Virus record (IMG/VR): IMGVR_UViG_3300030331_004412
Span: 1 to 56,692 of that record
DNA from: a virus
Direction: 5' to 3' (one strand)
DNA length: 56,692 bases
Below are positions 511 to 36,316 of this stretch, one piece after another. Under the pieces are notes generated by a model. That model was not told the DNA's origin. It did no database searches and saw only the letters and a list, made by a program, of their open reading frames with translations. The stretch's first letter is position 1; every line of letters starts with the position of its first letter. Both the position numbers and the translations under genes were made by a program.

Positions 511-518
511 TATCTTTG
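511..518 (+). promoter_or_regulatory. -7 box TATCTTTG, N4 before ATG
   Basis: TATCTTTG is followed by four bases and then the ATG at 523. Transcription from a TAnnTTTG element would begin at or next to the start codon, giving a leaderless mRNA. No -33 TTG lies 17-23 nt upstream. The same layout recurs at 1097, 17275, 25449 and 35288. Confidence 0.6.
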
Positions 519-522
519 AGCC

Positions 523-1095
523 ATGAGGGCATTAAAGTCAAGGAGGTACTATCAAGTAGGTGGTTCTACAGGGGACCCAAAGAAAGAAAGCACAGGGTAT
601 GCTAGGCTTGATGCTCGATTGGCTAGGCTAGCAAAGCAGGCTCAGTCTGACACCAGCAACTACACCACAGAACAAGCCGATAGACTAGAGCGACAGATTA
701 TGGCAGAAAGTTCTGGAAATCCAAATGCCATCTCTCCTGCTGGTGCACGTGGTTTGTTGCAGATTATGCCCTCCACACAAAGAGATTTAGAGGATAGGGG
801 GTTGATCCCCCGAGGTCTTGACCCATTTAACCCAGACCATAGCCGCAAAATGCGTGACGCAAAGATCAATGCTTTGTCTGAGCTGAGCTGGATCAAGGAC
901 CCCCCAAAGAAAATTCCTGAAGTAAACAGACTTGCACGTATTTATGCGTCTTACAATGCTGGGGAGGGTAGAATCAAAGACGCTTTGGAGAAGGCAAAGG
1001 CCGATGGGGTAGACATCTATGGTGACCCTAGGGCTTGGTTCAACTACATCCCTGAAGAGACCAGAGGGTATCTCAATAAGATACTTTTTGATTGA
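523..1095 (+). CDS. Lytic transglycosylase (SLT fold)
   Basis: A 190-aa peptidoglycan lyase that would cleave the MurNAc-GlcNAc bond. The SLT signature is clear: catalytic Glu62 in AESSGN, then ISPAGARGLLQIMPST (about 70-85) and YNAGEGR (144-150). There is no signal peptide, so export needs a holin or delivery in the virion. It lies 14 nt before the next gene and just upstream of an M15 peptidase, so the two form a wall-degrading pair. The start follows the TATCTTTG-N4-ATG arrangement. The first 45 residues are basic and not part of the catalytic domain. It may act at lysis or, as a virion enzyme, at entry. Confidence 0.88.
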   Translation: MRALKSRRYYQVGGSTGDPKKESTGYARLDARLARLAKQAQSDTSNYTTEQADRLERQIMAESSGNPNAISPAGARGLLQIMPSTQRDLEDRGLIPRGLDPFNPDHSRKMRDAKINALSELSWIKDPPKKIPEVNRLARIYASYNAGEGRIKDALEKAKADGVDIYGDPRAWFNYIPEETRGYLNKILFD

Positions 1096-1096
1096 T

Positions 1097-1104
1097 TATC
1101 TTTG
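1097..1104 (+). promoter_or_regulatory. -7 box TATCTTTG, N4 before ATG
   Basis: TATCTTTG then four bases then the ATG at 1109, the same arrangement and nearly the same flanks (GAtTATCTTTGA) as the box at 511. A leaderless transcript is predicted. No -33 element was identified. Confidence 0.6.
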
Positions 1105-1108
1105 ACGC

Positions 1109-1534
1109 ATGGCAACACTAAAAGTCACTATCACCGAAGAACTCTCCATCGACGGAGTTGAAAGAGGTAGTACGAGGAACCTAGACGTCCTCTCAGTAAC
1201 GCAAGTAGACAACAGAGTCGTTACTGTCACCAACTCAGAAACAGACATTGTCAAGTTTGGCAGCGCTATTGGTAGCGGAACGTTCGTAGCGGCTAACGTA
1301 AAGTACTTGCGCATCTCTCACACAGCTACTGCTAATAATCTGAATTTAAGAATCCTTGGAACCAACGAAGAATACTTCGTAAAACTTTCTGGAGGTCAAA
1401 GTTTCATCTTGAACAATGCGAGCATGGACGCCAATGACACGGGATCTCAGAGCATGACGCTAGCAAACATCTCAGAGATCAAGGCTGTCACTAATTCTGG
1501 CACGGTGGTGACAGAAATTATGGTTGTATCGTAA
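1109..1534 (+). CDS. Small beta-rich structural protein
   Basis: A 141-aa protein, Thr/Val/Asn rich and predicted all-beta. Its middle part (KYLRISHTATANNLNLRI, then YFVKLSGGQSFIL) has the same layout as the proteins at 18575 and 18970: a Tyr-x-Arg/Lys-Asn strand, a strand of hydrophobics, then a G-G/D-x-F-x-x-P/L turn. I infer a small paralogous family of capsid-decoration or fibre-associated beta proteins. There are no catalytic motifs. Exact function is unknown. Confidence 0.7.
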   Translation: MATLKVTITEELSIDGVERGSTRNLDVLSVTQVDNRVVTVTNSETDIVKFGSAIGSGTFVAANVKYLRISHTATANNLNLRILGTNEEYFVKLSGGQSFILNNASMDANDTGSQSMTLANISEIKAVTNSGTVVTEIMVVS

Positions 1535-1544
1535 ACCAGAATCT

Positions 1545-2027
1545 ATGAAGCTTTCAAAGAATCTGTCTCTTGCTGAGGTGACTAAAAGCACAACGGCAAA
1601 AAGACTAGGAATTGACAACACACCAGATGATGAATGGATTATTGAAAATCTCAGAGCGATTGCAGACGTTATTTTTCAACCTCTGCGCGACAGCTTCAAG
1701 TGCCCTATATTCGTTTCGAGCGGGTATCGTTCGCCTGATCTCAATGTTGCTATCGGTGGCTCGAAGCGCAGCCAGCACATGGAGGGAAGAGCACTTGATC
1801 TCGACGCAGATGTATACGGAGGTTGTACAAATAGTCAAATCTTCAACTGGATACGAGAAAATGTGGAGTTTGATCAGATGGTGTGGGAGTTTGGTGACGG
1901 AGATAATCCTGATTGGGTGCACGTCTCTTATGTTCGGGATGGGGTTAATCGTAAAAGGTGTCTCAAGGCTTTACGAGATGATAGAGGCAAAGTTTATTAC
2001 GAAGTAATGTTTGGTAAATCCCTCTAA
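1545..2027 (+). CDS. M15 peptidase endolysin
   Basis: Zinc-dependent D-Ala-D-Ala carboxypeptidase/endopeptidase of the peptidase M15 family, acting on peptidoglycan cross-bridges. Visible motifs are SGYRS (59-63), SQHMEGRALDLD (76-87, with zinc ligands His78 and Asp85) and DWVH (123-126, third ligand His126). The ATG at 1545 is preferred over the upstream TTG because it lies 10 nt after the previous stop and gives the family's normal length of about 160 aa. No signal peptide. Likely the lysis endolysin, working with the holin candidate at 42158. Confidence 0.88.
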   Translation: MKLSKNLSLAEVTKSTTAKRLGIDNTPDDEWIIENLRAIADVIFQPLRDSFKCPIFVSSGYRSPDLNVAIGGSKRSQHMEGRALDLDADVYGGCTNSQIFNWIRENVEFDQMVWEFGDGDNPDWVHVSYVRDGVNRKRCLKALRDDRGKVYYEVMFGKSL

Positions 2028-2030
2028 GAC

Positions 2031-4316
2031 ATGGCTTTATACGACGACGCATCATTCATTTTTTTGGCCTCTGGAGCTGCTGGAGTGGAGAACAAAGACT
2101 TTAGCAAGGCGCTCTGCGTAAAGCCTGTTGAGGTAACGGGACCTGAGCTTTTGAGCAGCTCTGATGGAGATTGGACCCTTGGCACTGGGGGTTCAATTAG
2201 CAATGGTGTAATAACTGTAGACGGAAGTCAAAGCAGTTCTATAAATCTTTTTCAGAATATCACAGACTTAGACAATAAGTCAGCAAAAATTTCTTTTACA
2301 ATAAGTAACCACTCTGCAGGTACAATACAGGGTCAGTTTTTTGGCGGCAATGAAGTAACGCCTTCTGTTGGACAAAATGGTACGTTTGCTTTTACAAAAG
2401 ATATAGGTGGATCTCACAACGGAAATGCTGGGTTTGGTGTTTCTAGTGATTTCGAAGGAACGATTAGTAATATCAGCATCAAAGAGGTTACAACAAAAGC
2501 TGCAGACTTTGACATCAGCAGAGACGCCAACCTCGACGCCACTCGCGTAGGACCTACTGGGTTGATCGAGAAGGGGAGGGAGAATAAATTCTTATACAGC
2601 AATAACTTTTCTAAAAATATTGGAACGTGGGGTCATAATGGTTTGTCTTCCGTGATTGGCATTCACAACTCACTAGGTCAGGAAGGATACGACGGAACGA
2701 ACAACGCCTCATACATCAGGGCTAGTGATGCAACTGGTGTTCATAAAGTTCTATTAAGCGCTCAGGCAGGAGTTTCTGTAAATAGTCAAGCAGTTCAAAC
2801 GATAAGTATTCATGCAAAACCATTAGGATATACTTTTCTTGCAATCACAACCCAAAGCGGAAATCAAGAAGCTTATTTTGATCTTGCAAATGGAACTGTA
2901 GGAACGACAGAAAGCGATGTTATTGAAGCAAAGATAACTCCCGCAGGTAACGGTTATTTTAGATGCTCTATGACTGTAAACGCTGATATAGCCATAACTC
3001 AGATAAACTTTAATATCGCTTTAGAGGACAACAATCATTCGTTTACAGGAGACCCAAATAGAGGCGGGACAGACAACGGGGGTATCTTTATTCAAGATGC
3101 CCAGTGGGAACTTGGACTGGTCCCAACAGAAATTATCTCTAGCAATGGATCTGCAGGCACAGCTGGCATTAAAGAAGATGAACCGCGCTTTGACTACCCT
3201 CTTGCTGGTGGTGCCCCGTCGTTGTTGTTGGAGCCGCAGAGACAAAATGAGTTGTCTTACAGCGAATACTTTGAAGGATGGGCATCCACAAGTAATGCTA
3301 CACTCACGAGCAATGATGTCATTTCTCCTGAGGGCGTTAAAAACGCTACGAAGCTCCTTGCCACTGCAGGAGATACTAATCACCAAGTAAACAGCGAAAG
3401 CCTTACTGTTGCAAGTGGTGCTGTATCAGCATCCATCTTTGCTAAGAAAGGAAACACCAATGTTGTTAGGTTACGACTTAATGGCACAACAAGCCAAGTC
3501 AGAGCGTGGTTTGATTTACAGAACGGAACAACCTCAGTTGACGGCAACGGAACCTCAACAATCACAGAGATGAATAATGGGTGGTTTCTATGCACTGTGA
3601 CTGAGGCAGGAAACACGAATACAGGTGTATCCCTTCAGGTTTTCATTAATGAAAACCTTGATGAAACTACATTTGCTGCTGATGGAGATGAGTTTATCTA
3701 TATCTATGGTGCCCAGCTAGAGGAAGGTAAATTTTGCACCTCTTACATCCCTACTCACGGGACTGCTGCTACGAGGAGCGCTGATACCATCGCTGATCTG
3801 ACATCTATACCTAGCGTCAACACTTCTACCTACACTTTCTTTGCTCATGTGTCTCAAGCTAATACTGGTGGCACGGGCAACAGAGGACCAAGAATGAAAA
3901 ACGCATCCAATGATGCTTTGATGGGTTACTTCATAAATAACTCTGACCAAAAGCAATTTTTCTTAGATCCAGATTCTGCAGGCGGCGGGAGCAATAGAAC
4001 GTTTTCTACAACTGACATTTCCCCAGTTAGCAGTACTCAGCTCGCAGGCGATGAAGTCAAGTACGCCTTTGTCATTAATGGAACATCAGTAAAATGTTTT
4101 GTAGACGGAAACACTTTATTTAATGGAACAGCCTCTGGTGTTGTTACAGCCAACAGAATTGTTTTTAACACTAGTGACGGTACTCCAGATCATATTAAAA
4201 GTGTCATTTACTTTCCATCGGCAATAAGCAATATTGATGCCTTAGTGCTTACCGATACAAACTATGGGTCATACAGCGAGATGGTCAATTCATTAAGTTA
4301 CACTCAACATGGCTAA
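2031..4316 (+). CDS. Receptor-binding / tail fibre protein, first paralog
   Basis: A 761-aa secreted-style beta protein with two jelly-roll carbohydrate-binding-like repeats. Repeat 1 begins at GLIEKGREN and ends at a WELGLVPTEII-type motif. Repeat 2 begins at LLLEPQRQNELSYSEYF and ends with YGAQLEEGKFCTSYIPT. This end signature is common in marine phage tail fibres and lectin-like adhesins. The last 180 residues look like a concanavalin-type sandwich. The N-terminal 180 residues differ from the second paralog and may mediate virion attachment. The next gene overlaps it by 8 nt. Likely binds host surface glycans; the exact ligand cannot be read from sequence. Confidence 0.75.
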   Translation: MALYDDASFIFLASGAAGVENKDFSKALCVKPVEVTGPELLSSSDGDWTLGTGGSISNGVITVDGSQSSSINLFQNITDLDNKSAKISFTISNHSAGTIQGQFFGGNEVTPSVGQNGTFAFTKDIGGSHNGNAGFGVSSDFEGTISNISIKEVTTKAADFDISRDANLDATRVGPTGLIEKGRENKFLYSNNFSKNIGTWGHNGLSSVIGIHNSLGQEGYDGTNNASYIRASDATGVHKVLLSAQAGVSVNSQAVQTISIHAKPLGYTFLAITTQSGNQEAYFDLANGTVGTTESDVIEAKITPAGNGYFRCSMTVNADIAITQINFNIALEDNNHSFTGDPNRGGTDNGGIFIQDAQWELGLVPTEIISSNGSAGTAGIKEDEPRFDYPLAGGAPSLLLEPQRQNELSYSEYFEGWASTSNATLTSNDVISPEGVKNATKLLATAGDTNHQVNSESLTVASGAVSASIFAKKGNTNVVRLRLNGTTSQVRAWFDLQNGTTSVDGNGTSTITEMNNGWFLCTVTEAGNTNTGVSLQVFINENLDETTFAADGDEFIYIYGAQLEEGKFCTSYIPTHGTAATRSADTIADLTSIPSVNTSTYTFFAHVSQANTGGTGNRGPRMKNASNDALMGYFINNSDQKQFFLDPDSAGGGSNRTFSTTDISPVSSTQLAGDEVKYAFVINGTSVKCFVDGNTLFNGTASGVVTANRIVFNTSDGTPDHIKSVIYFPSAISNIDALVLTDTNYGSYSEMVNSLSYTQHG
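2565..2584 (+). repeat. 20-nt identity shared by the two fibre genes (first site)
   Basis: ATCGAGAAGGGGAGGGAGAA occurs here and again at 4474-4493, at equivalent positions in the paralogous fibre genes. It is a possible seed for gene conversion or recombination between them. Confidence 0.8.
3738..3757 (+). repeat. 20-nt identity shared by the two fibre genes (second site)
   Basis: ACCTCTTACATCCCTACTCA occurs here and at 5620-5639, encoding the TSYIPTH end of the second jelly-roll in both paralogs. Third-position identity within otherwise diverged genes suggests recent exchange or a conserved recombination point. Confidence 0.8.
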
Positions 4317-6162: not shown

Positions 6163-6524
6163 GAATATTTAGAAAATACGAGTTTGGCAGCCAGTCTGCT
6201 GCTACAACAAAGATTAATGCCTTGGGGGTTGACGACGAAGGCAATCCAACCCACGGTCATTCTATTGTCAGGCTGGGTAATATCATAACAACACAAGGTG
6301 AGTATGATGAAGAGGGCAATCAAATTACAGCCCCTGTATACTCAGAGAACTACCACGTCGATGTCTTGTGGAAAGACGAGGCATCTGCAGACTGGGATAA
6401 TCAGATGGTGTGGTGCATGCCTATGGGGGTGCATACGTTTGGATCGTCTAGTGCCAATGCGGAGTATATTGCAAAATGTCAGGAGCTGCACCCAGAGTGG
6501 TTCCCCGAATCTGAAGAAGAATGA
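6159..6524 (+). CDS. Fibre-associated hypothetical protein
   Basis: A 121-aa acidic protein overlapping the fibre stop (ATGA) and the next small gene (ATGA), so probably translated in a coupled manner. It contains Trp-rich segments (DVLWKDEASADWDNQMVW) and ends with PEWFPESEEE. No family was recognised. Its location suggests a fibre chaperone or a cap of the receptor-binding complex. That is inference from context only. Confidence 0.7.
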   Translation: MRIFRKYEFGSQSAATTKINALGVDDEGNPTHGHSIVRLGNIITTQGEYDEEGNQITAPVYSENYHVDVLWKDEASADWDNQMVWCMPMGVHTFGSSSANAEYIAKCQELHPEWFPESEEE

Positions 6525-6676
6525 TTGGATTAGGAGCATCTGTATCGTCAACGTCTTACAACACCAAGATTAGATCTGATGAGCTTGTTGACGCTTTTAG
6601 AGCAAGGGTTGTTGCCGATGGCGGAACCCTTGAAGACGGCAATAGCTTAGAGAAAGACCTCAGAGCTCTTATCTAA
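6521..6676 (+). CDS. 51-aa fibre-module protein
   Basis: ATG at 6521 overlaps the previous stop as ATGA and the frame runs to TAA at 6674. The product starts MIGLGASVSS and contains FRARVVADGGTLE. I recognise the 'RVVADGGT' phrase from small proteins next to lectin-like fibre genes in other phages, without known function. Its last 30 nt overlap the tail of the convergent minus-strand gene. The normal coupling to its neighbour supports it as real. Confidence 0.65.
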   Translation: MIGLGASVSSTSYNTKIRSDELVDAFRARVVADGGTLEDGNSLEKDLRALI

Positions 6677-7087: not shown

Positions 7088-7100
7088 TTAACTAAAATTC

Positions 7101-7406
7101 ATGGACGACAAATACGAAGATATGATGGACGAAGGCTTTCTGATGGAAGCAAGAGAACTTCATGTGGCCATGGATGAGCTGATAGAAAAGTACGACCTCA
7201 GAAGCAGAGTCATGAACTGCATGGTTACAGGTCTTCTGCACCCTATTGACGAAGAGACGTCTGAAATGAAAGCCATCTTCACGTATAGCATCGAAACCAA
7301 AGATGAGCTTGAGGAAGTAATTTCTTTCATTGTGACTACCTTTGAAGAACAAAAAGGCCCAGACTTAGACGAGTTGTTAGGTGGCCTAGGTATTTCATTG
7401 AATTGA
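7101..7406 (+). CDS. Acidic hypothetical protein
   Basis: A 101-aa Asp/Glu-rich protein, predicted mostly helical, ending with DLDELLGGLGISLN. It starts 13 nt from the divergent winged-helix gene and is followed after 1 nt by the next ATG. No recognisable domain. The acidic helical character would fit a DNA-mimic or a partner of the divergent regulator, but nothing in the sequence proves it. Confidence 0.65.
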   Translation: MDDKYEDMMDEGFLMEARELHVAMDELIEKYDLRSRVMNCMVTGLLHPIDEETSEMKAIFTYSIETKDELEEVISFIVTTFEEQKGPDLDELLGGLGISLN

Positions 7407-7407
7407 C

Positions 7408-7922: not shown

Positions 7923-7929
7923 TTTACTT

Positions 7930-8520: not shown

Positions 8521-8523
8521 GCG

Positions 8524-9351: not shown

Positions 9352-9363
9352 CTCCTTTTAGAA

Positions 9364-9720
9364 ATGCCTTTCAAAGACCCTCGGGCTCGTAAGGCATACA
9401 ATAAAGCTTATCAAAAAAAGCATTACAAAGAGAACAAAGACTATTACAAAGCCAAAGCTTTGTTGTCTAAATCAGAACAACGAAAATGGAATAGAGAGTT
9501 TGTCAATAGGGTAAAGAAAATGTTTGGATGCATAGACTGTGGTGAATCCAATGTTGTTGTCCTAGAGTTTGATCACGTCAAAGGTGAAAAGATTGCGAAC
9601 ATAGCAAACATGGTTCACCGCCCTCACAGCATAAGCGCGATCAAAAAAGAAATGAGAAAGTGTGAGATTAGATGTGCAAACTGCCATCGAATCAAAACAC
9701 ACGAAAGAAGAAAAAATTAA
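9364..9720 (+). CDS. HNH homing-type endonuclease
   Basis: A 118-aa endonuclease of the HNH superfamily. A very basic N-terminus (1-50) precedes the nuclease: C56-x2-C59 zinc knuckle, LEFDH (67-71) as the first HNH element, and CEIRCANCHRIKTH (100-113), giving the second zinc pair C104/C107 and the last His. It ends exactly one base before the tRNA-Arg. That placement is typical of mobile HNH genes inserted near tRNAs. It might also assist packaging, as HNH proteins next to TerL do, since terminase is only about 220 nt away. Confidence 0.85.
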   Translation: MPFKDPRARKAYNKAYQKKHYKENKDYYKAKALLSKSEQRKWNREFVNRVKKMFGCIDCGESNVVVLEFDHVKGEKIANIANMVHRPHSISAIKKEMRKCEIRCANCHRIKTHERRKN

Positions 9721-9797
9721 GCGCGAGTAGCATAACTGGATAATGCACAAACCTTCTAAGTTTGTTATTGGGGGTTCGAGTCCCTCCTCGCGTACCA
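9721..9797 (+). tRNA. tRNA-Arg(UCU)
   Basis: A full cloverleaf can be folded. Acceptor GCGCGAG/CTCGCGT is 7 bp with one G-U. D stem GCAT/ATGC. Anticodon stem CAAAC/GTTTG with loop CTTCTAA (anticodon TCT). T stem GGGGG/CCCTC with loop TTCGAGT, then discriminator A and an encoded CCA (9795-9797). It would read AGA, a common Arg codon in the phage's large genes. It begins immediately after the HNH stop codon, so it must be processed from the late transcript. Confidence 0.95.
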
Positions 9798-12066: not shown

Positions 12067-12074
12067 TATATTTG
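12067..12074 (+). promoter_or_regulatory. -7 box TATATTTG before portal
   Basis: TATATTTGCACAAA is followed directly by an ATG at 12081. The identical 14-mer recurs at 18543-18556. Predicted transcription starts at or near the ATG of a 4-codon frame, so the portal mRNA would be leaderless or nearly so. Confidence 0.6.
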
Positions 12075-12080
12075 CACAAA

Positions 12081-12095
12081 ATGCGTCTCTTGTAA
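12081..12095 (+). CDS. MRLL leader minicistron
   Basis: ATG CGT CTC TTG TAA encodes four residues, and its stop overlaps the portal start as TAATG. It begins where transcription from the upstream TATATTTG box should begin. If leaderless initiation occurs, ribosomes would load here and re-initiate on the portal ATG. It is very short and could be chance; the exact junction overlap is the reason to list it. Confidence 0.35.
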   Translation: MRLL

Positions 12096-14533
12096 TGCAC
12101 TCATCATACTCAAAAGGATCAAGCAACTTTCCAGACCCCTTGGTTTCGCAGCAAGAGAAAAGCTCTTATGCGTACGGCAAGCAATATGCGAAAGCCATTG
12201 AAAAGCAATGGGGGAGCCTTGACAACACCTCTTCTATTTTAAAAGAGAGAAACAAAACATTTGACCGCAACCGTGAGTACGCAAACGGAACTCAGGACAC
12301 TACTATTTACAAACAGATCCTGACAAACCTAGATCCAAACAACGCCGATGGCAGTTTGGTAAATATTGACTACACCCCAGTTCCCATCCTTCCGAAGTTT
12401 GCCAAGATTGTTGCAAACAAAATTCTTTCTAGAGACCCGTATCCAAACCTAGAGGCGATTGACCCCCTGTCTATTTCTGAAAAGCAGAAAAAGAAAAACA
12501 GGATTAAAAATCAAGTTGCCCTCAGAGATAAGCTTCTTAAGCTGAAAGAGGTTACTGGGGGTGCCGTTATTGCTGACGATCCAGAAACATTGCCCGAGAC
12601 TCCAGAGGAGGCGGAAATTCTCATGGACACAAATGTTAAGACTGACGCAGAGATTGCTGCTCAGATTGGCACGAACCTTACTCTGTCTTGGAACAACTTC
12701 AACGACAACATCTTTCGTCGTGTAGTTAACGATTTGGTTTCTTGCGGGATGGGGGTTGTGAAAAGAAGTAACGATCCAAACTACGGAATCAAAGAGGAGT
12801 ATGTAGACCCCATGAAGTTTGTCCACAGTTACACTGAGGACCCCTCCATGGATGACCTTTCTTATGCTGGGAACATTCGTAGCGTTACCATTGCCGAGCT
12901 GAAAAGAATAGCTGGGGATGAGCTTTCTGAAGAGGACTTTGAAAAGATTGCCAAGAGAAGCAAAGACTCTGCTTCAAGAATGCACCAGCAAAGATATCAG
13001 TACACTTCGGGCAAGGGTCCTAATGACTACGACCACTACATGGTTGACATTTTGGACTTTGAGTTCTTGTCTGTTGACTGCATGTTTTTTGAGGACAAAG
13101 AAAACAAGTACGGAAACAGAAATTTCTTTTACCAAGGCTTTCAGTACAAGGAAAAGAAAAATTCAGTGTATGAAAGATCTCCGTCTAAGATGGAGATTGC
13201 TACAGTGTATGGTGGCATTTACATCATGGGGTGTGACATGCTCATCGACTATGGCCTGAAAACAAACATCCCTAGAAACGTTCACGACCTGTCTCGTGCT
13301 AGACTCTCCTATTCTGCGATTGCAACAAACATTCGTAGAATGATGCCGAAGTCTCTCATTGACAGCTGCATTGGTTTTGCAGATATGCTTCAGATTACTC
13401 ATCTCAAGCTTCAGCAAGCTATTGCAAAGGCAAAGCCTGACGGCTTGATCATTGACATCGAGGGATTAGAAAACGTACAGCTTGGAAAGGGTGGGGACCT
13501 CCAGCCTCTTGAGCTTCACGATATCTACGAGCAAACGGGTGTCTTCTATTACAGAAGCAAAAACCCAGAGGGTGGTTTTCAGAACCCCCCTGTTCGTACG
13601 ATTGACAATCATATCAGAAACATTAATGAACTTGTTTCTCTGTACAACCACTACCTCAGAATGATCCGTGACGCCACGGGCATCAACGAGATGATGGACG
13701 GTACAACCCCGAAGGGTGAGACACTTGTCGGTGTTCAGCAGAATGCCATCGCGGCTGGCAATAACGCCATCTACGATATCACACACTCTGCTATGGTTCT
13801 GTATAAGAAGGTTTGCGAAGACGTAGTAAAATGTCTTCAGATCCTTCCACCAGAATCTGTTATTTATTCTGCGTACAAGAACGCAATCGGTGAAGCAAAC
13901 ATGGGGGTCCTCAGTTCTTTTTCAGACTTGCCCATGTTCAACTTTGGCGTCAGGGTGGTGAAAGAGATGGAGGACAAAGACCGCATGTACTTGGAGCAAA
14001 ACATTCAGATGTCCATCTCACAAAAAGAACTGGACATTGAAGATGCGATTGCGATCAGAAACATGAAAGACGTAAATCAGGCTGAAAGACTTCTTGTAGT
14101 GCGCAGAGCAAAGCGCATGAAAAAAATGCAAGAGATGGCCATGATGAACTCTCAGCAACAAGCTCAGATTCAACAACAGTCCGCCATTGCATCTGCTCAG
14201 ATGAAACAGCAGGAGTCTCAGCTTCAGGCTCAGATTGACATGCAGATGTTACAGGCTAAGAATCAATTTGAGATTCAACGAATGCAGCTTGAGCATGAGA
14301 TGCGTAAAGAAATAGAGCTTATCAGGGCTCAGGCAACTCTTGGTTTTAGAACTGAAGAGCAGGAGTTTAAAGAAAAGCTTGAGGTTCTCAAAGAGGACAG
14401 AAAAGACAAGCGAGTTAAAAAGCAGGCAGTAGAGCAGTCTAAGCTTATCTCTCAAAGACAAGAGCGCGGACCTGTTTTGGTTGAAGAAGAGTCCCCCGTT
14501 CAAATTGTAAACAGCTTCGGCGATGGCCAGTAA
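12095..14533 (+). CDS. Portal protein
   Basis: An 812-aa protein directly after TerL, the expected position and size for the dodecameric portal of crAss-like and related podoviruses. The first 600 residues show the alternating helical and beta layout of portals (for example TPVPILPKFAKIVANKILSR early, DATGINEMMDGTTPKGETL near the end of the core). The last 200 residues are a long Gln/Met/Glu-rich coiled coil, the barrel-like extension. Starts at TAATG from the MRLL frame. The next gene overlaps its end by 11 nt. Confidence 0.82.
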   Translation: MHSSYSKGSSNFPDPLVSQQEKSSYAYGKQYAKAIEKQWGSLDNTSSILKERNKTFDRNREYANGTQDTTIYKQILTNLDPNNADGSLVNIDYTPVPILPKFAKIVANKILSRDPYPNLEAIDPLSISEKQKKKNRIKNQVALRDKLLKLKEVTGGAVIADDPETLPETPEEAEILMDTNVKTDAEIAAQIGTNLTLSWNNFNDNIFRRVVNDLVSCGMGVVKRSNDPNYGIKEEYVDPMKFVHSYTEDPSMDDLSYAGNIRSVTIAELKRIAGDELSEEDFEKIAKRSKDSASRMHQQRYQYTSGKGPNDYDHYMVDILDFEFLSVDCMFFEDKENKYGNRNFFYQGFQYKEKKNSVYERSPSKMEIATVYGGIYIMGCDMLIDYGLKTNIPRNVHDLSRARLSYSAIATNIRRMMPKSLIDSCIGFADMLQITHLKLQQAIAKAKPDGLIIDIEGLENVQLGKGGDLQPLELHDIYEQTGVFYYRSKNPEGGFQNPPVRTIDNHIRNINELVSLYNHYLRMIRDATGINEMMDGTTPKGETLVGVQQNAIAAGNNAIYDITHSAMVLYKKVCEDVVKCLQILPPESVIYSAYKNAIGEANMGVLSSFSDLPMFNFGVRVVKEMEDKDRMYLEQNIQMSISQKELDIEDAIAIRNMKDVNQAERLLVVRRAKRMKKMQEMAMMNSQQQAQIQQQSAIASAQMKQQESQLQAQIDMQMLQAKNQFEIQRMQLEHEMRKEIELIRAQATLGFRTEEQEFKEKLEVLKEDRKDKRVKKQAVEQSKLISQRQERGPVLVEEESPVQIVNSFGDGQ

Positions 14534-17274: not shown

Positions 17275-17282
17275 TATATTTG
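17275..17282 (+). promoter_or_regulatory. -7 box TATATTTG, N4 before GTG
   Basis: TATATTTG, four bases, then the GTG start at 17287. The spacing equals that of the ATG genes and supports the GTG as the true start of the first basic protein. Confidence 0.6.
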
Positions 17283-17286
17283 TGCT

Positions 17287-17592
17287 GTGAGCAAAGAAGG
17301 ATTGAGAAACAGAATCAAGCGCATGCTAAAAAAGCATGGGCTTTCTGGTGTAAACAAACCAAAGCGCACACCTAGCCATCCCAAGAAATCACACATCGTC
17401 CTTGCCAAGCAGGGAGATAGAGTAAAGCTGATTCGTTATGGACAGCAGGGAGCCAAGACAGCGGGTAAGCCAAAGGCAGGCGAAAGCGACCGCATGAAAA
17501 AAAAGAGAGCTAGCTTCAAGGCTAGACACAGAAAAAACATAGCCAAAGGCAAGATGAGTGCTGCTTTCTGGGCCAACAAATCAAAATGGTAA
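17287..17592 (+). CDS. Basic 'KARH' phage protein
   Basis: A 101-aa, strongly basic protein. KSHIVLAKQGDRVKLIRYGQQG followed by FKARHRKNIAKGKMSAAFWA and the C-terminal NKSKW is a pattern I recognise from small proteins of many marine phages (cyanophages included); the function is not established. It starts with GTG, placed by the promoter box. First of five consecutive Lys/Arg-rich genes that may condense or bind packaged DNA. Confidence 0.75.
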   Translation: MSKEGLRNRIKRMLKKHGLSGVNKPKRTPSHPKKSHIVLAKQGDRVKLIRYGQQGAKTAGKPKAGESDRMKKKRASFKARHRKNIAKGKMSAAFWANKSKW

Positions 17593-18542: not shown

Positions 18543-18550
18543 TATATTTG
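18543..18550 (+). promoter_or_regulatory. -7 box TATATTTG with short leader
   Basis: TATATTTGCACAAA, identical over 14 nt to the portal promoter. Here the ATG is 24 nt downstream (18575), so the mRNA has a leader of about 20 nt with an A-rich, SD-less stretch (CGGAAAAACT). An A-rich leader is typical of Bacteroidota translation starts. Confidence 0.6.
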
Positions 18551-18574
18551 CACAAATAACTACTCGGAAAAACT

Positions 18575-18970
18575 ATGGCTACTACAACCGCATCCCTCAC
18601 GCTTTCTAGCGGAGATTTGACTGGCGATGCTCTTTCTTTGAGCACAAGCACCCAGCTTACAAAGGCTGGCACCGTGACAGGTCTTGACCAGACAACTGGC
18701 GTTGCTAGAAAAACATTTACAACCACAAGCATTCAGACGCTTATCGCAAAAGGAGACTTCTCTGACGATAAGGCTCACAAGGTGTACGTCAGAAACACAA
18801 GCACCACCGCAACAGAGAACCTCATTGTTACCATTGAGTCTCAGTTGTTGGGTAGACTTTACGCTGGTGACTTTATGTTCATCCCATTCAACGGGGACCA
18901 AGACATTAAAATTACCCCAAGTGTTGCTACAGCTATGACTGTAGAGTTCTTGGTTATTTACGAAGCGTAA
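18575..18970 (+). CDS. Small beta structural protein, paralog B
   Basis: A 131-aa Thr/Ser-rich beta protein. The second half (KVYVRNTSTTATENLIVTIE, then YAGDFMFIPFNGDQDIKI) has the same layout as the proteins at 1109 and 18970. It sits just before scaffold and capsid genes under its own promoter, which suggests an abundant virion component such as a decoration protein. The next gene starts at TAATG. Confidence 0.7.
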   Translation: MATTTASLTLSSGDLTGDALSLSTSTQLTKAGTVTGLDQTTGVARKTFTTTSIQTLIAKGDFSDDKAHKVYVRNTSTTATENLIVTIESQLLGRLYAGDFMFIPFNGDQDIKITPSVATAMTVEFLVIYEA

Positions 18971-19377
18971 TGGGAACGGTAAGAGCCTCACTTAGTCTCT
19001 CTACCTCTACGGTTATGACGTCTCCGATTAGCATCGGAGTCAACATGACCATCAATGCTGACTCTGGTCATGTCCAGCGTGTCAAGGTTCTTGGTACCGC
19101 AGCTGGAAGCGACGCCATCACCGTCTATAAGGCAAGCGACAAACTTGAGAATGCATATCTGTACATCAAGAACATGTCTGCTGAAAAAGAGAAGTACATC
19201 TTTGTGTATGCTGACTCATCCTCTGACGACCCAGTAGTTATGAAAATTGGAGGGGGAGAGTTCGCTTTTGTCCCTGCAAAGAATGATCAGACGATGAAGG
19301 CGTACGGGACAGATGTTGATCAGATGGTTGAATACGCTGTGTTTGGTTTGGATAGTTCAGCAGTAACACTCGCATAA
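18970..19377 (+). CDS. Small beta structural protein, paralog C
   Basis: A 135-aa beta protein with NAYLYIKNMSAEKEKYIFVY and GGGEFAFVPAKNDQTMKAYG, aligning by pattern to the preceding protein's YVRNTS and AGDFMFIP segments. Probably arose by tandem duplication and then diverged. Expected to be a minor or decorating virion protein. Confidence 0.7.
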   Translation: MGTVRASLSLSTSTVMTSPISIGVNMTINADSGHVQRVKVLGTAAGSDAITVYKASDKLENAYLYIKNMSAEKEKYIFVYADSSSDDPVVMKIGGGEFAFVPAKNDQTMKAYGTDVDQMVEYAVFGLDSSAVTLA

Positions 19378-23283: not shown

Positions 23284-23308
23284 AGGCCCTGCGGGGCCTT
23301 TTTCTTTT
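23284..23308 (+). terminator. Rho-independent terminator
   Basis: AGGCCC (23284-23289), loop TGCG, GGGCCT (23294-23299), followed by TTTTTCTTTTG. It ends the capsid block; a new promoter box follows only 4 nt later. Confidence 0.85.
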
Positions 23309-23311
23309 GTC

Positions 23312-23319
23312 TATATTTG
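23312..23319 (+). promoter_or_regulatory. -7 box TATATTTG, N5 before ATG
   Basis: TATATTTG then five bases to the ATG at 23325. It directly follows the terminator, giving a terminator-promoter relay. It fixes the start of the next gene, whose frame otherwise extends upstream to a TTG inside the promoter. Confidence 0.65.
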
Positions 23320-23324
23320 TGGCA

Positions 23325-24560
23325 ATGGACAAGTTCATCATATTTAAATTGAAAGACGTTACCCCAGCAGGGGCCAGCCTCTCTGATGACGGGACTGGCA
23401 TTGAGATCATTTCTTTGCCAGTAAAGTCCATTTCGTATATGACTGCTTCCACGGGCAAGGTCAACATCTTTTACAATGATGTTTCTGCCTACGACGAAAG
23501 CAATTTGAGCACGGGGGAGTCAACTCAAAAATCATTCGTCACGATAAGTTGTGAGGCGGGGGAAGAGTTTACAACCATTGAAAGCATATCGAACTTTTCT
23601 GGTTTGACCACAACTAGCGATGCCCTCATCTTTGACGCTGACGAAATAGGCACCATCAATGCTGTTGTGCATGCCCACCCCGTCAACAGGGTTACTGGCA
23701 AGGCGAGTGTTATCACAGACAATTCGTTCACTGCTGTGTCTTCCAACACAATCAATGACATCAACTTTGGGTCAGTTGAAAACAAACCAATCCTAGATCT
23801 AGACTTTAGAAATGCTGTTTTTAACGGCACCCTATCTAGTGGTGCTAGCGGAAACATCTCTGCTTTGGTTAATTCTGGTACGGGTGGTTCGTCTTTTAAC
23901 TTTGCAAGCGTTACTGGTGACGTGACTCAGCTAGCTGGCAGTATTAGTAGCAATATAAAAGACTCAATAAACACGGGTAGTTTTCTTACGAGCTCTTACA
24001 TCTCGCTAGCTAATGAGCTTACTGTTCATAATGACTACACGATGTATATGGTGTATGCGAATGGCGTTTCTGCTACAACAAAACAAGCTCCGCTTATCTA
24101 TGGGGTTGATGCAGGTGACTCCAGTGGAGGTATTGGTGTTTTCCCTAACTCGCGTGAGATCATAAAAACAAACATTGACAACAAAATCGGCATTCAGCAT
24201 AACGAAAGGGTTGGTGATGCAGCTCTTCAAGACACGTTAGTGAGCTTAGATGAGGTTACCCCTTGTGTTGTTGTAATTAGAAGAGATGATGATTTTAACA
24301 TCTCTGGATACAACGCAAATGGAAACTTGTTATTTTCTATTCCTGCCGTCATAGGTAAAGCTTCAGACACAGGCGTTCCAATCGTTACAAGCGGGGCTAC
24401 TGACGGAGATTTATCCATCCGCCACATTGGAACTGTTAGCGAAAACACCACGCTTTCTTTTGAAGGAAAGCTTGCGCGTTTTGGTGTTATCGAAAGAGAC
24501 ATCGGATCTTTTGAGTCTCAACGCCTTGCTAAAGACCTTTTTGACTTCTATTCATTCTAA
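23325..24560 (+). CDS. Lectin-like virion protein
   Basis: A 411-aa protein from the ATG at 23325. The N-terminal 150 residues are a beta domain. From NKPILDLDFRNAVFNGTLSS onward it resembles a LamG/concanavalin-like sandwich (YTMYMVYANGVS; LSFEGKLARFGVIERDIG near the end), common in phage adhesion proteins. Its place between capsid and connector genes suggests a capsid-surface fibre or adhesin rather than a tail fibre. Ligand unknown. Confidence 0.65.
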   Translation: MDKFIIFKLKDVTPAGASLSDDGTGIEIISLPVKSISYMTASTGKVNIFYNDVSAYDESNLSTGESTQKSFVTISCEAGEEFTTIESISNFSGLTTTSDALIFDADEIGTINAVVHAHPVNRVTGKASVITDNSFTAVSSNTINDINFGSVENKPILDLDFRNAVFNGTLSSGASGNISALVNSGTGGSSFNFASVTGDVTQLAGSISSNIKDSINTGSFLTSSYISLANELTVHNDYTMYMVYANGVSATTKQAPLIYGVDAGDSSGGIGVFPNSREIIKTNIDNKIGIQHNERVGDAALQDTLVSLDEVTPCVVVIRRDDDFNISGYNANGNLLFSIPAVIGKASDTGVPIVTSGATDGDLSIRHIGTVSENTTLSFEGKLARFGVIERDIGSFESQRLAKDLFDFYSF

Positions 24561-25415: not shown

Positions 25416-25447
25416 GAGAGAGGCCCTTCGGGGCCTCTTTTGTTTTT
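25416..25447 (+). terminator. Rho-independent terminator with TTCG loop
   Basis: AGAGGCCC (25419-25426), loop TTCG, GGGCCTCT (25431-25438), then TTTTGTTTTTG. A canonical stable tetraloop terminator. It is followed at once by a -7 box, as at 23284. Confidence 0.92.
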
Positions 25448-25448
25448 G

Positions 25449-25456
25449 TATATTTG
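25449..25456 (+). promoter_or_regulatory. -7 box TATATTTG, N4 before ATG
   Basis: TATATTTG, four bases, ATG at 25461. It restarts transcription after the terminator for the connector/tail block. It also shows that the longer upstream reading frame (from 25440) is not the start. Confidence 0.65.
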
Positions 25457-25460
25457 CTTC

Positions 25461-26222
25461 ATGATTAGTGTCATTGAAGTATACAATGCCGTACGTGATT
25501 TAGCCAACAAGGATCAGAAGGGTTTTGTAAGTCCAGAGATGTTTAACTCTCTGCTCCCTTCGGCTCAATCTGCCATCTTCAGAAAGATTTACGAGTCAGC
25601 ACTTCAGGGTAAGGCACTAAGAAGAGCTGGAGGAGATCTCGGTGGGGAGGACTCGCTTTACCTGAAGGCTAAAAACTTTCTTTCAGAGTACATCGATACT
25701 CAAACACTACAGCCTATTCGTAGAGGTGCGTCTTCATTTTATGAGGATTCGACTGTATTTAGAAAGCCTGAAAACATTCATAGAATTATTTCAGTATTTG
25801 CAGACACGAGTGAGTTTGGGGTTACCAACGTAGACCTAATCTACAACTCAGAAAAAATCAGTCGCATCCTAAACAGCAATCTATCTGCTCCTACTGGCGC
25901 TTTTCCAGTGGCTCTTATTTCTAACGAAATTGAAGTGTTCCCGTCTGCTATCGGCAGTGTGAACATCAACTTCTACAGAAACCCCACATCTAGATTTGAG
26001 ACGAGCTCAAGAGTAATCAGGGTTGGAGACATTGACACTAAAAGGCAGCCATCATATTCTGCTGAAACAACAGCAGGCATTGTTATTCCAAACCCACCAA
26101 ACTGCAGGGGGTTTGATCTCCCCGCAGAGTTCAGAGATGAAGTCATTAAAGAGATTTGCAAAATGATTGGAGTGTCCCTTAGAGATGGCGTTCTCATTGG
26201 GTATGGCAGCGATGCACAATAA
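25461..26222 (+). CDS. Head-tail connector protein 1
   Basis: A 253-aa protein. Start ATG set by the promoter box. The pattern IEVYNAVRDLANKDQKGFVS, then LLPSAQSAIFRKIYES and a C-terminal LPAEFRDEVIKEICKMIGVS, resembles a ring/connector protein that precedes the adaptor in crAss-like podoviruses. No enzyme motifs. It leads a block of connector, nozzle and ejection genes and likely binds under the portal. Confidence 0.65.
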   Translation: MISVIEVYNAVRDLANKDQKGFVSPEMFNSLLPSAQSAIFRKIYESALQGKALRRAGGDLGGEDSLYLKAKNFLSEYIDTQTLQPIRRGASSFYEDSTVFRKPENIHRIISVFADTSEFGVTNVDLIYNSEKISRILNSNLSAPTGAFPVALISNEIEVFPSAIGSVNINFYRNPTSRFETSSRVIRVGDIDTKRQPSYSAETTAGIVIPNPPNCRGFDLPAEFRDEVIKEICKMIGVSLRDGVLIGYGSDAQ

Positions 26223-33000: not shown

Positions 33001-34319
33001 TCGTTGCGCTTGAATCCAAGCTCGATGAGTATAGCACTGACTTAGAAACCTTAGTTTCTTTGAATCTTGAGGCTGGCATCCAAGTTTACAAAGACGATCA
33101 GTTTGAAACTGTTATTACCTCTCAGCTAGACAACATATCGTCCCTTGAAGCAACGCGAGATGCTCTTGCATTGTATGCTTTTTCGGGTTTAAACGCACTT
33201 TACAATTTAGCTGGACAGCCCAGCACTTACTCTTTTTTGCCGTCAGCAGTTACCGATTTGTTTAACGACAACGTAAATCCATCATTTACTACCCCTCAAC
33301 AAATTCTAGACGCTTTTGACATTGATGGGGATAGTGCAATTTCTCTTGAAGAGATATTCCTTACCCCAACAATTGAAGATGAGTTTTCGTCTGATCTTGA
33401 GGCAGCGTTTTCTACTACTGACGCAATAGACGCCCTAAGGGGTCCAGTAACAACCTTCTTGGGAGATGTAAACGATGTTCTTGAGGAGTTTGATCTACCC
33501 ATTTCTTTAGATGGCGTAGGAAACTTAGATGAAAACGAGTTTATTAATCTTATTGGCAACTTTAGTCAAGCTCTAGGGATGACTACTTACACTGAGGTTG
33601 GCACGGGTAGTGCTAGCCTTATTGACAGAATTAAAAACCTTAAAGGGGCATTGACAGAGATTGCTATACAGTGGGTTTCTAGAAATGGATTGCAGGGCGT
33701 GACTAACAACACCAACATTCAGGCAGCCAATCTTCATAGCCTTAGTAACGAGCAGGTTGAATTTGTAATCGGTAATGCCCTCAGGGCTCCAGAGGTTGGG
33801 GACAACCGTTACAAGATAGAGGTTCTTTGGGCGAGTGTGATTGCAGCTGACGCTTCCATCAGGCAATGGCAACGCTGGTTTGGTCAGATTTACGAAGATT
33901 TACCAGCTCCAGAAGATACGGGCGCCGACCTCGGAAAATACACAAGCGGTTTTACATCTCCTGAGCAAGAAGATGCTGAAGGTTTTAGGGGGCTTGAACC
34001 ATCTGACTTTTTATCAGGGCCATTTGGGGTGTCTCATAACTTTACAGGTCAACCGACCGCCTTTGATGAAGGCGGCTCTTACCTTAAAGGGGTTGTAAGG
34101 GCCATAGAGCAGCTTAATGCAGTGGCCTTTGGAGATACGTATATCCAATTTAGCCATCCAGCTTTTGATCCCGCTAGACTGCCCTTTAATAATTTTACTG
34201 TTACCAACACATTGCAAGACTTTGTTGGTGGCCCATTGTATCAAGAGGCCGTTGGGGACATAGAAGCTGCTTATCAGGCGGCCATAGATGCTCAGGGTGA
34301 GGAAGAAACGCTTAACTAA
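27087..34319 (+). CDS. Giant tail nozzle (muzzle) protein with EF-hand extension
   Basis: A 2410-aa protein. It opens with PRKLNSSKDTRLHAKDEMLD and GSCNDNRAGRIYYFVYSP, the pattern of podovirus nozzle/muzzle proteins (T7 gp12-like in role). The core runs to about residue 1600, ending near GGYDPILDEYVLSVYNATTL. The remaining 800 residues are unusual for this family: Asp/Glu-rich helices (EEDNETLGGIVETL) and an EF-hand-like loop DIDGDSAISLEE (2078-2089) followed by a second weaker one near DGVGNLDENEF. The usual C-terminal part of the family appears in the next gene. Likely forms the tail tube end that contacts the cell. Confidence 0.75.
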   Translation: MIDKVFPRKLNSSKDTRLHAKDEMLDAVNITIDENSGEIAGGVETASGNFGVVKPVKGNTAVTAGDSHSLAVGSKVIGSCNDNRAGRIYYFVYSPTASESGVYYYETSTNSVKKLIASDLFNFRGNSFVDGNIVYVANSDTAVGATDLKPVLFFTDNKTEPKKIDIQRVAEAGTGVTFLDFVSVCPRTPIDPPVWTFQSDTTRKVSNFRGERGFQFAYQNIYKSGDVSALSTYSTLAIPSAYLNQGTVSNPNFFAENVISIQITPDAFTSEVARVRVLARIGNSGSWFVVDEQPLTDPTATFQSDFYNDQIYSVLPEAETQKQFDSVPKKARTQDVTNNRLFYANYVEGFDVPEVSATIQHNFDARPQDFISVNLELIPEIRQVNFAEGVAGDAGDVFDDFGEPVSFNSDECRNRVTVYRVDSSQLPNTVEANTQVIFNVSLSPENNFHFYESRDSMHSSAELRRMESVVDGTESHIMANNLQNSFITADFDNGENVGMDPVGRSFFNGQKQGGFETSFAARPREGITTSPFGLVSGSDSAFPRWATLSPQDITPLRVAYGTSAQNPFILQGSSCQFSASFVTIAEMGKETLVSIIKDMLSNNTGENSSLFEVQDVSGSSVSVPLVEIVSLENRHTYNIDLNIQNKDKIGVYTSNDYRSDLVVAVGDHSVLSGGDARQLPPCGYFIVNKATPTVGLRDVTPLFALSQYGQADDTFLALDLIDIADFQYMTCIPDVAMGESLDTNLINISAALASSFTGAGVDSGLYSWGNIFDGWRCFDVTYMTSPNGFSTLTASELGALEGVSGLFKHNAREIFDILSSGTFSFDTNPQANNQPNLLHPNLAVNYADAGIGTSSGALIPLTASNLYAARAQELGFDIQSRNAQQISRWLGYLIPTQAAVTTSGFGAFTFTNVIGGRLIFTFENFIDELLNTVEVPFESEDDINEVKNNPYSYYKYAFTMLDGEGVVGGSSEYNQSTLNQSSLTHSNITMGFASWLENSSVSGDFAGGAQVNFENFNMNLPLLKTGDITHPAAFNDFLQSPENPIFSEQKTIVDVTSFDAAVIPSYGQGGSNKSFKTKATHDFGIVFYDQRGRSSDVVSLGSHYVTGYDEASDKGPVRMQINLAGSPPSWAWHYQIVYGGNSTYEDFMQYTSGGAFVEHEAEGDTGNIYVSLNYLQNSNISYSEAFGAVNEDGSKDLYTYREGDKLRIISYYLDNSSRVYPTAYEFDVVGVKNFADDEDNILINQQNPPAIPSKVGEFLVLRDNPQATGFSYSFVKEAQTGGTSPSSTSAHFWNNRCVFEIYTPLDSQAIENRVYYEISKKYNVIRDTLTSSIAYENNQIVLDNGDVYFRRVAVNMPDFSSVNNKFLNILRDSGSSQSKFRDYYLETRTFTDTISGADQYDFGKVKIVNRFQKEIRRDSSITFSDVQRLADPVLRYTSFDPTQGNFKDFPNKHGQISKIVDYGDALFVLNEKKISAIPIARSVISDLAGQDFVVASEKVMGTQKFYAGDSGCSTNPESVVKVGESLYFANKESQEVYKFNPSNGVTVISEMGMKSYFRELFSSAISSALTSGQVRVVGGYDPILDEYVLSVYNATTLTFTSDVEIDQFEGEVVTDDPIAPSGTDGTAPVDGDDGVDDTSIQDFLDQIETLEEDNETLGGIVETLSEAIVGVVGSGSVADPDGLSTSIQDFVSGLNNQIESLDDAIFTANTDISELTEQLDSAVTAIEQNESVIIAQLIIASNAHAQLKANIEQAIDQMQGFRGQLFESFDQDETLNVPVVANEFSSTYPPNTELTALVYADFLQLYIDAAEDLVDQYVDAAGSYLKRDGSYFTDYTVGYGVFTDGSIPPDSAIGQNPNFVSETNGFVAEMNGVTAASGIASIQDFIAQVGLAEEALESEQGGTAELLQDKLDLLNQIGQLVSAVNQTRGPSQGGDVTGGTAVGAVTRLFGDNYNGVADNVIGDLYDAYQTSLVALESKLDEYSTDLETLVSLNLEAGIQVYKDDQFETVITSQLDNISSLEATRDALALYAFSGLNALYNLAGQPSTYSFLPSAVTDLFNDNVNPSFTTPQQILDAFDIDGDSAISLEEIFLTPTIEDEFSSDLEAAFSTTDAIDALRGPVTTFLGDVNDVLEEFDLPISLDGVGNLDENEFINLIGNFSQALGMTTYTEVGTGSASLIDRIKNLKGALTEIAIQWVSRNGLQGVTNNTNIQAANLHSLSNEQVEFVIGNALRAPEVGDNRYKIEVLWASVIAADASIRQWQRWFGQIYEDLPAPEDTGADLGKYTSGFTSPEQEDAEGFRGLEPSDFLSGPFGVSHNFTGQPTAFDEGGSYLKGVVRAIEQLNAVAFGDTYIQFSHPAFDPARLPFNNFTVTNTLQDFVGGPLYQEAVGDIEAAYQAAIDAQGEEETLN

Positions 34320-34329
34320 TCTACTTGTC

Positions 34330-35280
34330 ATGAAAAAGACAATTGGTTTTAGCAACAAAAACAACATGTGGACCTCGAAGTACGATTACGTTGCTTCGAA
34401 CTACAGCACCATTGATAAAAAATTCTTCTCCTCCAACAAGCTTACCACGTCTGATAGCACTATCGCTTGGAGGCACAATGAAGGCTTACCCAATACTTTC
34501 TATGACACCGCTTACCCCTCTACAGTTGCTGTGTCTTTTGCCAACAACCCCTCTGAAAATAAAATTTACAAGTCTATGTCCTTGGAGGGCAGCGGCAATT
34601 TTGCAAATGTAGTAAATGCATTCACCACCAGTGAGTTTATTAGCCCCTCAGGATCAAGAGAATACATCAATGCAGGTCTAGTAAAGAATTACGGGGGTAT
34701 CAACTATGCTCACCTTGGCAGAGATCCAAGGATTAGACCCACAGCAGACCTGAAGTACATGGGGTTCTTTGGACCTATAGGGTTTGGGGTTGGCTTTTTG
34801 TTAGATCTCTTAGTGTTGGGAACAGACAATTTGTACATGTTCCCCATACAAGGGCCTGTTGTTGGTGTTGGTCAAAGCGAATCCAACATCACAAAAATAT
34901 TGTTTAAAACTGAGTCGTCAAACGTTTTTTATGTTAGAGAGGGAAGCGTCAACTCCATTGCAGTCGGGGACAAATATTCTGATATTTCAACAAGTATTGC
35001 AATCGCTAACGAACGGGACTTAGAAGGCACAGATTTTGAAACTGCTTACCAGCCCAAGAGTTTGATTGTTAAAATTGACTCGGCATCAGTAGGAACTCTT
35101 GGACAGCTAATTCAAAATTCTGACATCGTCAGTGTTTTCTCCTTGTGCGACCCCAAGCACTGCGGAGATACAATGCGTGGTCAGTATGCAGAGGCGCATT
35201 TTACCTTCCCAGCACAGCCATTTGAGTTGTATTCTTTGAACCTGAACTACGAACCTACTAGCTTAGACCACTCTAAGTAA
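34330..35280 (+). CDS. Nozzle C-terminal-like protein
   Basis: A 316-aa protein from the ATG at 34330 (an upstream in-frame ATG at 34288 overlaps the nozzle gene). TIGFSNKNNMWTSKYDYV, STIDKKFFSSNK and VSFANNPSENKIYKSMSLEG correspond to the region that in other nozzle proteins directly follows the YDPxxDEYVLxxYN segment. The end (LYSLNLNYEPTSLDHS) matches their C-terminus. So the ancestral nozzle appears split in two genes here, with the 800-aa extension in between. It probably assembles with the giant protein. Confidence 0.7.
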   Translation: MKKTIGFSNKNNMWTSKYDYVASNYSTIDKKFFSSNKLTTSDSTIAWRHNEGLPNTFYDTAYPSTVAVSFANNPSENKIYKSMSLEGSGNFANVVNAFTTSEFISPSGSREYINAGLVKNYGGINYAHLGRDPRIRPTADLKYMGFFGPIGFGVGFLLDLLVLGTDNLYMFPIQGPVVGVGQSESNITKILFKTESSNVFYVREGSVNSIAVGDKYSDISTSIAIANERDLEGTDFETAYQPKSLIVKIDSASVGTLGQLIQNSDIVSVFSLCDPKHCGDTMRGQYAEAHFTFPAQPFELYSLNLNYEPTSLDHSK

Positions 35281-35287
35281 CAATAAC

Positions 35288-35295
35288 TATATTTG
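35288..35295 (+). promoter_or_regulatory. -7 box TATATTTG, N4 before ATG
   Basis: TATATTTG, four bases, ATG at 35300. It drives the internal virion protein block. No -33 TTG at the usual distance. Confidence 0.65.
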
Positions 35296-35299
35296 TAGC

Positions 35300-36316
35300 A
35301 TGATCGAGGCTATCTACGATTTTTTACACTACTTTGTTTTTGGGCCCGACCTCCCTTATTTGCAAAAGGCTATTGAGCCAATCACTTTGGCTCTTATTTT
35401 AGGTGGGACAAAGCTGTTGACCGATGTGGGGCAAGGCATTGCGTCAAACAAAAGAGCCAAACAGCAAAGGAAGGAGGGCGAAAAGATTGCTCGCAAGGCA
35501 GAAAAAAGGATTAGAGAAGCCAACTTTACTGTTGGTCAAGAGCAACGCGACCTTGCGGACTTGCAAAAGCAACAGTTTGAAGACTTGCAAAGCCTTGTCA
35601 ATAGGAATCGCATGGCTCAATCACAGCAAGCTATTGCGTCATCTTTGGGAGACCCCACACGGGCAGCATCTGGTGTTTCTCCGCTTCTTGATAAGATGAA
35701 TCAAAGCAACTTAGAGACAAGCTTGCAGCTTGGTCAGCAAAAAACTGCTGTCGATCAGCAGCTGGCAAACTTGACGGATCAGGTTAGAAGAGCCAACCTG
35801 CAAAAGAACTTGAACTTAGACGCTCAGCTTAGAGGTGAGGGCGTTACGGCAGCTGGGCTAGGATTTGCCGCTCAAGGCGACGCTCAAAACATGATGATCG
35901 GGTCTCTAGCAGAGGGTGTTGACACGGGTCTGGCCGCGTACAACTTGGCTAGTGGCCTTAATGCTGACGGATCTCCAAGGGTAAACGAGCAAGGCGGCAC
36001 CTTGAGCAATCAGATTTACAGAACAGGGGGTGAGTTTGACCACGACACCAACAAAAAAGCCTTGGTAGACGAAGAGACAGGAGAAAAAGAAGCTGAGCTT
36101 ACAGGAGAGGAGGTAGTACTAAATCCTGACCAAACAGAAAGCACAATGAAGGCAGCGGACATGCTGTTCGCTTTCTTGAAAGAAAATCCTGACGCTCCAG
36201 AAGAAGTGAAGAAGGCTGTAGAGCTTCTCGCGTTCTTAAACGAACCTCAGTTCCAAGGCCCCGATGAAGTTGACATGCCAAAAGACGCTGTTGAGGAGGG
36301 TGAAATTGTATTGTAA
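35300..36316 (+). CDS. Internal virion protein (ejection protein A)
   Basis: A 338-aa protein. The N-terminal segment (LPYLQKAIEPITLALILGGT) is hydrophobic and amphipathic; then comes a long coiled coil (KRAKQQRKEGEKIARKAEKR) with Gln/Ala-rich helices. This resembles T7 gp14-type ejection proteins, which insert into the host envelope. The C-terminal part (YRTGGEFDHDTNKKALVDEE, then LTGEEVVLNPDQ) is a conserved phrase in Bacteroidota phage internal proteins. First of three head-interior proteins, joined to the next by TAATG. Confidence 0.7.
   Translation: MIEAIYDFLHYFVFGPDLPYLQKAIEPITLALILGGTKLLTDVGQGIASNKRAKQQRKEGEKIARKAEKRIREANFTVGQEQRDLADLQKQQFEDLQSLVNRNRMAQSQQAIASSLGDPTRAASGVSPLLDKMNQSNLETSLQLGQQKTAVDQQLANLTDQVRRANLQKNLNLDAQLRGEGVTAAGLGFAAQGDAQNMMIGSLAEGVDTGLAAYNLASGLNADGSPRVNEQGGTLSNQIYRTGGEFDHDTNKKALVDEETGEKEAELTGEEVVLNPDQTESTMKAADMLFAFLKENPDAPEEVKKAVELLAFLNEPQFQGPDEVDMPKDAVEEGEIVL

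Follow-up and report, generated by a model that had tools for sequence, protein, structure and literature searches.

Host-type -7 promoters predicted to give leaderless virion and lysis mRNAs in an uncultured phage with a probable Bacteroidota host

Several virion and lysis genes of the phage described here very probably lie behind host-type promoters that consist of a -7 element and place the start codon at +1, so that their mRNAs are predicted to be leaderless. These promoters would be of the Bacteroidota housekeeping type with the -7 element only, and the virion and lysis block would be transcribed in several short operons by the host's RNA polymerase together with its primary sigma factor. 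In six of the eight cases the start codon would stand where RNA synthesis begins, 4–5 nt after TAT(A/C)TTTG, and the resulting mRNA would be leaderless or have at most about 1–3 nt before the start codon; the remaining two sites would give short leaders. With leaderless starts, even a short gap (13–20 nt at 1109, 17287 and 35300) would have room for promoter, spacer and start codon, and in two cases the promoter-start module would come straight after a terminator.

The window, the whole stretch of DNA analysed, is a 56.7-kb virus record. Its genes between 523 and 48242 nearly all point rightward, terminase, portal, tail and other virion genes among them, and the leftward genes from 48.2 kb are those of replication (primase/helicase, exonuclease). 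Among named phages the closest terminases are those of a Manatee Spring podovirus, Flavobacterium Elemovirus and Cellulophaga phages; Megablast of the window against phages gave no match. The sample of relatives comprises 80 IMG/VR loci whose terminases are 79–90% identical, drawn from a larger number. Judged from these relatives, the host is probably a member of the Bacteroidota, and a marine one is probable; a genome scan for prophage relatives found only two MAG contigs. A tRNA-Arg (TCT) gene lies at 9721–9797, between gene 9364–9720 and the terminase gene, and in the relatives several leaderless genes lie directly 3′ of sequences resembling tRNA 3′ ends.

The initial annotation had placed the layout TAT(A/C)TTTG-N4-start at 523, 1109, 17287 (GTG), 25461 and 35300, and each of these coordinates does carry the motif, as TATCTTTG or TATATTTG on the (+) strand, as at all sites below. 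TATCTTTG, N4 and ATG form predicted leaderless promoters at the transglycosylase (SLT) gene 523–1095 (511–525) and at gene 1109–1534 (1097–1111), where the -7 element and spacer take up nearly all of the 13-nt intergenic gap. TATATTTG and N4 precede the GTG of gene 17287–17592 (phrog_7595; 17275–17289) and the ATG of gene 35300–36316 (35288–35302). At 25416–25463 an intrinsic terminator (25416–25441) abuts TATATTTG (25449–25456), followed by N4 and ATG 25461 of a virion structural gene, and at 23284–23327 a terminator (23284–23299) runs into TATATTTG (23312–23319), N5 and ATG 23325, a 5-nt distance that had been listed correctly. In both composites the -7 element and start codon follow directly on the terminator's T-tract. 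The site listed for 12081 (12067–12097) does have its motif, TATATTTG, at 6 nt, but that ATG opens a four-codon mini-ORF; the promoter has a short leader in the window, since the portal gene starts at ATG 12095, 20 nt from the motif. The list was correct in the sites it named but incomplete, as it missed a leadered promoter at 18543–18577, in which TATATTTG (18543–18550) lies directly 3′ of the previous gene's stop and 24 nt before ATG 18575; the gene run behind it leads into the putative major capsid gene (20908).

No TTG is present at -33 of these sites, as had been noted, unlike the site at 336–366, where TTG (336–338) stands 20 nt before TACCTTTG (359–366) in a full -33/-7 promoter-like arrangement with no start codon nearby. 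That site is followed by about 145 nt (to 510) that hold no ORF of 60 or more amino acids and a hairpin at 403–437; 336–510 is possibly a small RNA or a regulated leader, and an Rfam search of the first 1.2 kb gave sub-threshold miRNA matches only. Two strong Shine-Dalgarno-like repeats, AAATCAAGGAGGT (28–40) and AAGTCAAGGAGGT (535–547, within the transglycosylase gene), are odd in a phage whose host phylum makes no use of signals of this kind.

Each of the eight forward TATNTTTG sites between 450 and 48242 falls in intergenic DNA, although such DNA makes up 1.4% of positions there. When motif occurrences near starts are counted against randomised sequence, as had been proposed, exactly N4 is found at five of the 64 called starts, where Markov-resampled upstream regions give an expectation of 0.0035. 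The plain 8-mer count shows no enrichment (12 seen versus 8.4 expected). Chance was nevertheless rejected as the cause: the number of 8-mers is ordinary, but their placement is non-random, and permuted control motifs have no N4 peak in the relatives.

The relatives repeat this spacing. Across the 80 terminase loci the terminase-coding strand has 224 copies of TATATTTG and the opposite strand 17, and the distances to ATG peak at 4 and 5 nt. Once near-duplicates are removed, the motif-to-ATG distance in 82 related loci is bimodal, with 50 sites at N4, 15 at N5 and 80 at N12–45; N0–3 and N6–11 together have five sites, the 6–11 nt range being near-empty. GTG starts also peak at N4 (six, versus zero to two at other distances). 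Distances of 6–11 nt are almost absent in loci L005–L084 and also in the Elemovirus and phi38:1 clades. It is as if leaders of 2–7 nt were counter-selected, and their near-absence points to what may be two distinct modes, one with no leader and one with a leader of 8 nt or more.

The leaderless habit is concentrated in this clade, where 65 of 150 sites (43%) are leaderless versus 1 of 52 (2%) in Elemovirus relatives (Fisher 1e-9, a p value that overstates independence, as the sites are kin by descent). The share is 3/20 around TerL in the phi38:1 clade and 6/48 in two bacterial genomes (1.2 Mb) of the family of G013, a Bacteroidetes MAG that has a related terminase and is not a proven host. 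TATATTTG-N4-ATG reaches 39 per Mb in 12 relatives versus 2.1 per Mb in 38 genomes of the G013-family kind, and its reversed control 0.8 per Mb. Twelve large related records have one to four N4 sites each, and phi38:1, phi46:3, phi14:2, B124-14 and phi10:1 have no TAT(A/C)TTTG N4 sites. In Elemovirus elemoE, a cultured relative that grows on Flavobacterium sp. BAL314, N4 sites are predicted at 19187, 46440 and 4450(-).

Compared junction by junction, with relatives that are statistically non-independent, the promoter layout is conserved in sequence at orthologous positions. Thirty usable homologs of 1109 comprise 12 with N4, two with N5, seven leadered and nine that lack the motif. The 17287 junction has N4 in 11/19 homologs and no motif in 8/19, every motif-bearing homolog being leaderless; at 25461, N4 is found in 8/13 and a leadered site in 5/13. 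Portal homologs are mostly leadered (70/83; leaderless N5 in 10/83), and homologs of 18575 are leadered in 25/30 and leaderless in none. The layout is not obligatory, as the 8/19 of 17287 and 9/30 of 1109 homologs without the motif indicate. Homologs of window genes that have no motif also lack it (TerL, 0/84; 14523, 0/54; putative major capsid, 0/20; 26230, 0/15), with the exception of 24576, where 4/12 have a leadered site. At the 25461 junction the terminator-promoter composite is shared with Elemovirus, the Manatee phage and phi38:1, all of them leadered there, and the comparison suggests that leaderless may be the derived state. Elemovirus and phi38:1 are distant from the window's clade.

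The -7 element TAnnTTTG of Bacteroidota (sigma-ABfr) promoters is present at these sites, and it has been mapped at -12 to -5 in F. psychrophilum (PMC9723704); therefore an N4-ATG arrangement would put +1 on the A of the ATG, a distance found in the window and in relatives alike. In F. johnsoniae 4 or 5 nt separate the -7 element from +1, and -33 is not evident (PMC6847099). The A peak of leadered sites is a check on +1 that is independent of the ATG: in this clade A is found at position 5 after the motif in 77% and at position 6 in 76%, falling to 41% at position 7. Position +1 after the motif is C or T in 99% of leadered sites, and this base profile is absent from 40 motif copies away from gene starts. 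Where the spacing is N4, the base just before ATG is C or T in 98% (n = 44), and such a pyrimidine would steer initiation to the A. Initiation 3 nt before the ATG, giving a 3-nt leader, is also possible, because A is frequent at position 2 after the motif (72% of leadered sites). The earlier suggestion that transcription starts at the start codon is supported by the published +1 maps and, in relatives, by the N4/N5 peak and the pyrimidine before ATG: the sites are promoters, most of them predicted to give leaderless mRNAs, and leaderless mRNA from these sites is a well-supported prediction.

The same annotation had supposed that a phage factor or modified sigma use might be involved, but the need for one is not supported. 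An unlikely but not negligible alternative is that these promoters, leaderless all the same, are served by a polymerase or sigma factor which the phage encodes or modifies and which recognises TATATTTG-Y in the absence of a -33 element. The phage motif, TATATTTG or TATCTTTG then C/T, is indeed much tighter than host TAnnTTTG, TTG falls within the -33 window at only 15% of leaderless and 11% of leadered sites, and many of the phage's genes have no known function on a contig that may be incomplete. However, the TTTG/TTG at -33 of the B. fragilis consensus, not found here, is not evident in F. johnsoniae promoters either and is not treated as defining there; its absence is normal in Flavobacterium, and the AT-rich upstream blocks resemble those described for F. 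johnsoniae (PMC6847099). Leadered and leaderless sites share the pyrimidine after the motif, the AT-rich upstream blocks and the lack of -33, the more distant phi38:1 also uses leadered TAT(A/C)TTTG sites, and scans of 41 predicted proteins against PHROGs and/or Pfam matched no sigma factor or RNA polymerase, although an unrecognised factor, or one encoded beyond the contig, may exist. These promoters do not require a phage factor, because Flavobacterium promoters also have no evident -33 and the leadered and leaderless sites have one upstream profile.

Host-type promoters of this kind would give leaderless messages only where coding begins at the adjacent start codon. It is quite improbable that the motif is a promoter and the true start a later in-frame ATG, with a leadered mRNA, although start calls are based on ORFs and not on proteomics. 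Such later starts would leave the N4/N5 peak and the empty 6–11 nt gap without a cause, and coding conservation extends from codon 2: over codons 2–9, synonymous/nonsynonymous pair differences are 74/77 among 25461 orthologs and 212/209 among 1109 orthologs, and third positions dominate. In a few relatives, as at 17287 in the window, the codon at exactly N4 is GTG instead of ATG, and this GTG/ATG exchange between window and homologs also argues for a start there. GTG is usually a poor start in leaderless mRNAs, and in that respect the GTG at 17287 counts against the leaderless reading. The first 40 nt fold more weakly in leaderless genes than in other ORFs (-3.0 versus -4.5 kcal/mol).

That TATATTTG-N4-ATG instead serves as a signal for translation or protein binding on longer polycistronic RNAs, as its position at the tight junctions between genes of a single long rightward block might suggest, is hardly tenable, since the same 8-mer lies 12–45 nt from the start at other junctions, the spacing toggles between both modes at single orthologous junctions (25461, portal, 1109), the motif follows terminators at 23284 and 25416 and matches a known -7 element, and a Kozak-like signal was rejected because -6 is never A at leaderless sites (T or G only).

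The mini-ORF at 12081 (ATG CGT CTC TTG TAA, MRLL*; 12081–12095) has a stop that overlaps the portal ATG at 12095 (12081–12097). Among distinct leadered portal homologs a mini-ORF stop meets the portal ATG in 12/58, and shuffled leaders give a mean of 0.8; most upstream ATGs in portal leaders lie 5–6 nt after the motif, the leaderless distance, suggesting that the portal mini-ORF may be a leaderless mini-cistron with translational coupling. Of the 25 homologs of the capsid operon promoter (18575) that carry a motif, none is leaderless. We would suggest, tentatively and at somewhat less than even odds, that the clade uses leaderless initiation as a standard, operon-specific mode for its virion operons, with capsid always leadered, others leaderless, and the portal gene in some members led by a leaderless mini-cistron of 4–6 codons that hands ribosomes over by stop-start overlap. 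On this reading the leaderless mode would work on ribosomes that hide their anti-Shine-Dalgarno sequence, and a single phage would contain a switch of translation mode that is both tunable and heritable. The presence of a leader may set translation output, which would then differ between leaderless and leadered operons.

The way in which Bacteroidota ribosomes select start codons in the absence of Shine-Dalgarno pairing is still under study, and close relatives in which one promoter and gene occur both leadered and leaderless form natural pairs that make leaderless initiation in Bacteroidota directly testable. From the layout, transcription start sites and operons can also be predicted in uncultured aquatic phages of a common group, and the layout is a source of very compact promoter-start modules for Bacteroidota. 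No prior report of leaderless promoters in Bacteroidota phages was found in the open-access literature, and one may exist in subscription papers.

Leaderless messages are rare in Bacteroidota: they make up 5.5% in F. psychrophilum (PMC9723704), 5′ UTRs under 10 nt are about 3.7% in B. thetaiotaomicron (PMC7366714), and leaders of 10 nt or less are about 13% in F. johnsoniae (PMC6847099). The sigma-ABfr promoters of these three species have the same -7 TAnnTTTG, and those of Flavobacterium also the 4–5 nt from -7 to the start site that is predicted for the phage, no evident -33 and AT-rich upstream blocks; unlike host promoters, the phage sites are nearly all TAT(A/C)TTTG-Y, with the large leaderless share given above. 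The TA-led genes of Actinobacteria and Deinococcus-Thermus likewise have a promoter element about 10–12 nt before the start codon and no 5′ UTR, but a different sigma element; the survey that described them sought TANNNT-like signals and found leaderless genes in only 1/37 Bacteroidetes/Chlorobi genomes (PMC3160421). Flavobacterium Elemovirus and Cellulophaga phi38:1 have homologous terminase and capsid genes and the terminator-promoter composite at the 25461 junction, but they are leadered there and have few leaderless sites around TerL (1/52 and 3/20). The λ cI message from PRM is the classic leaderless phage mRNA, and it too begins at its start codon; it is the product of a single regulatory gene in a temperate phage, whereas here several virion and lysis operons are concerned, in a layout conserved across a clade.
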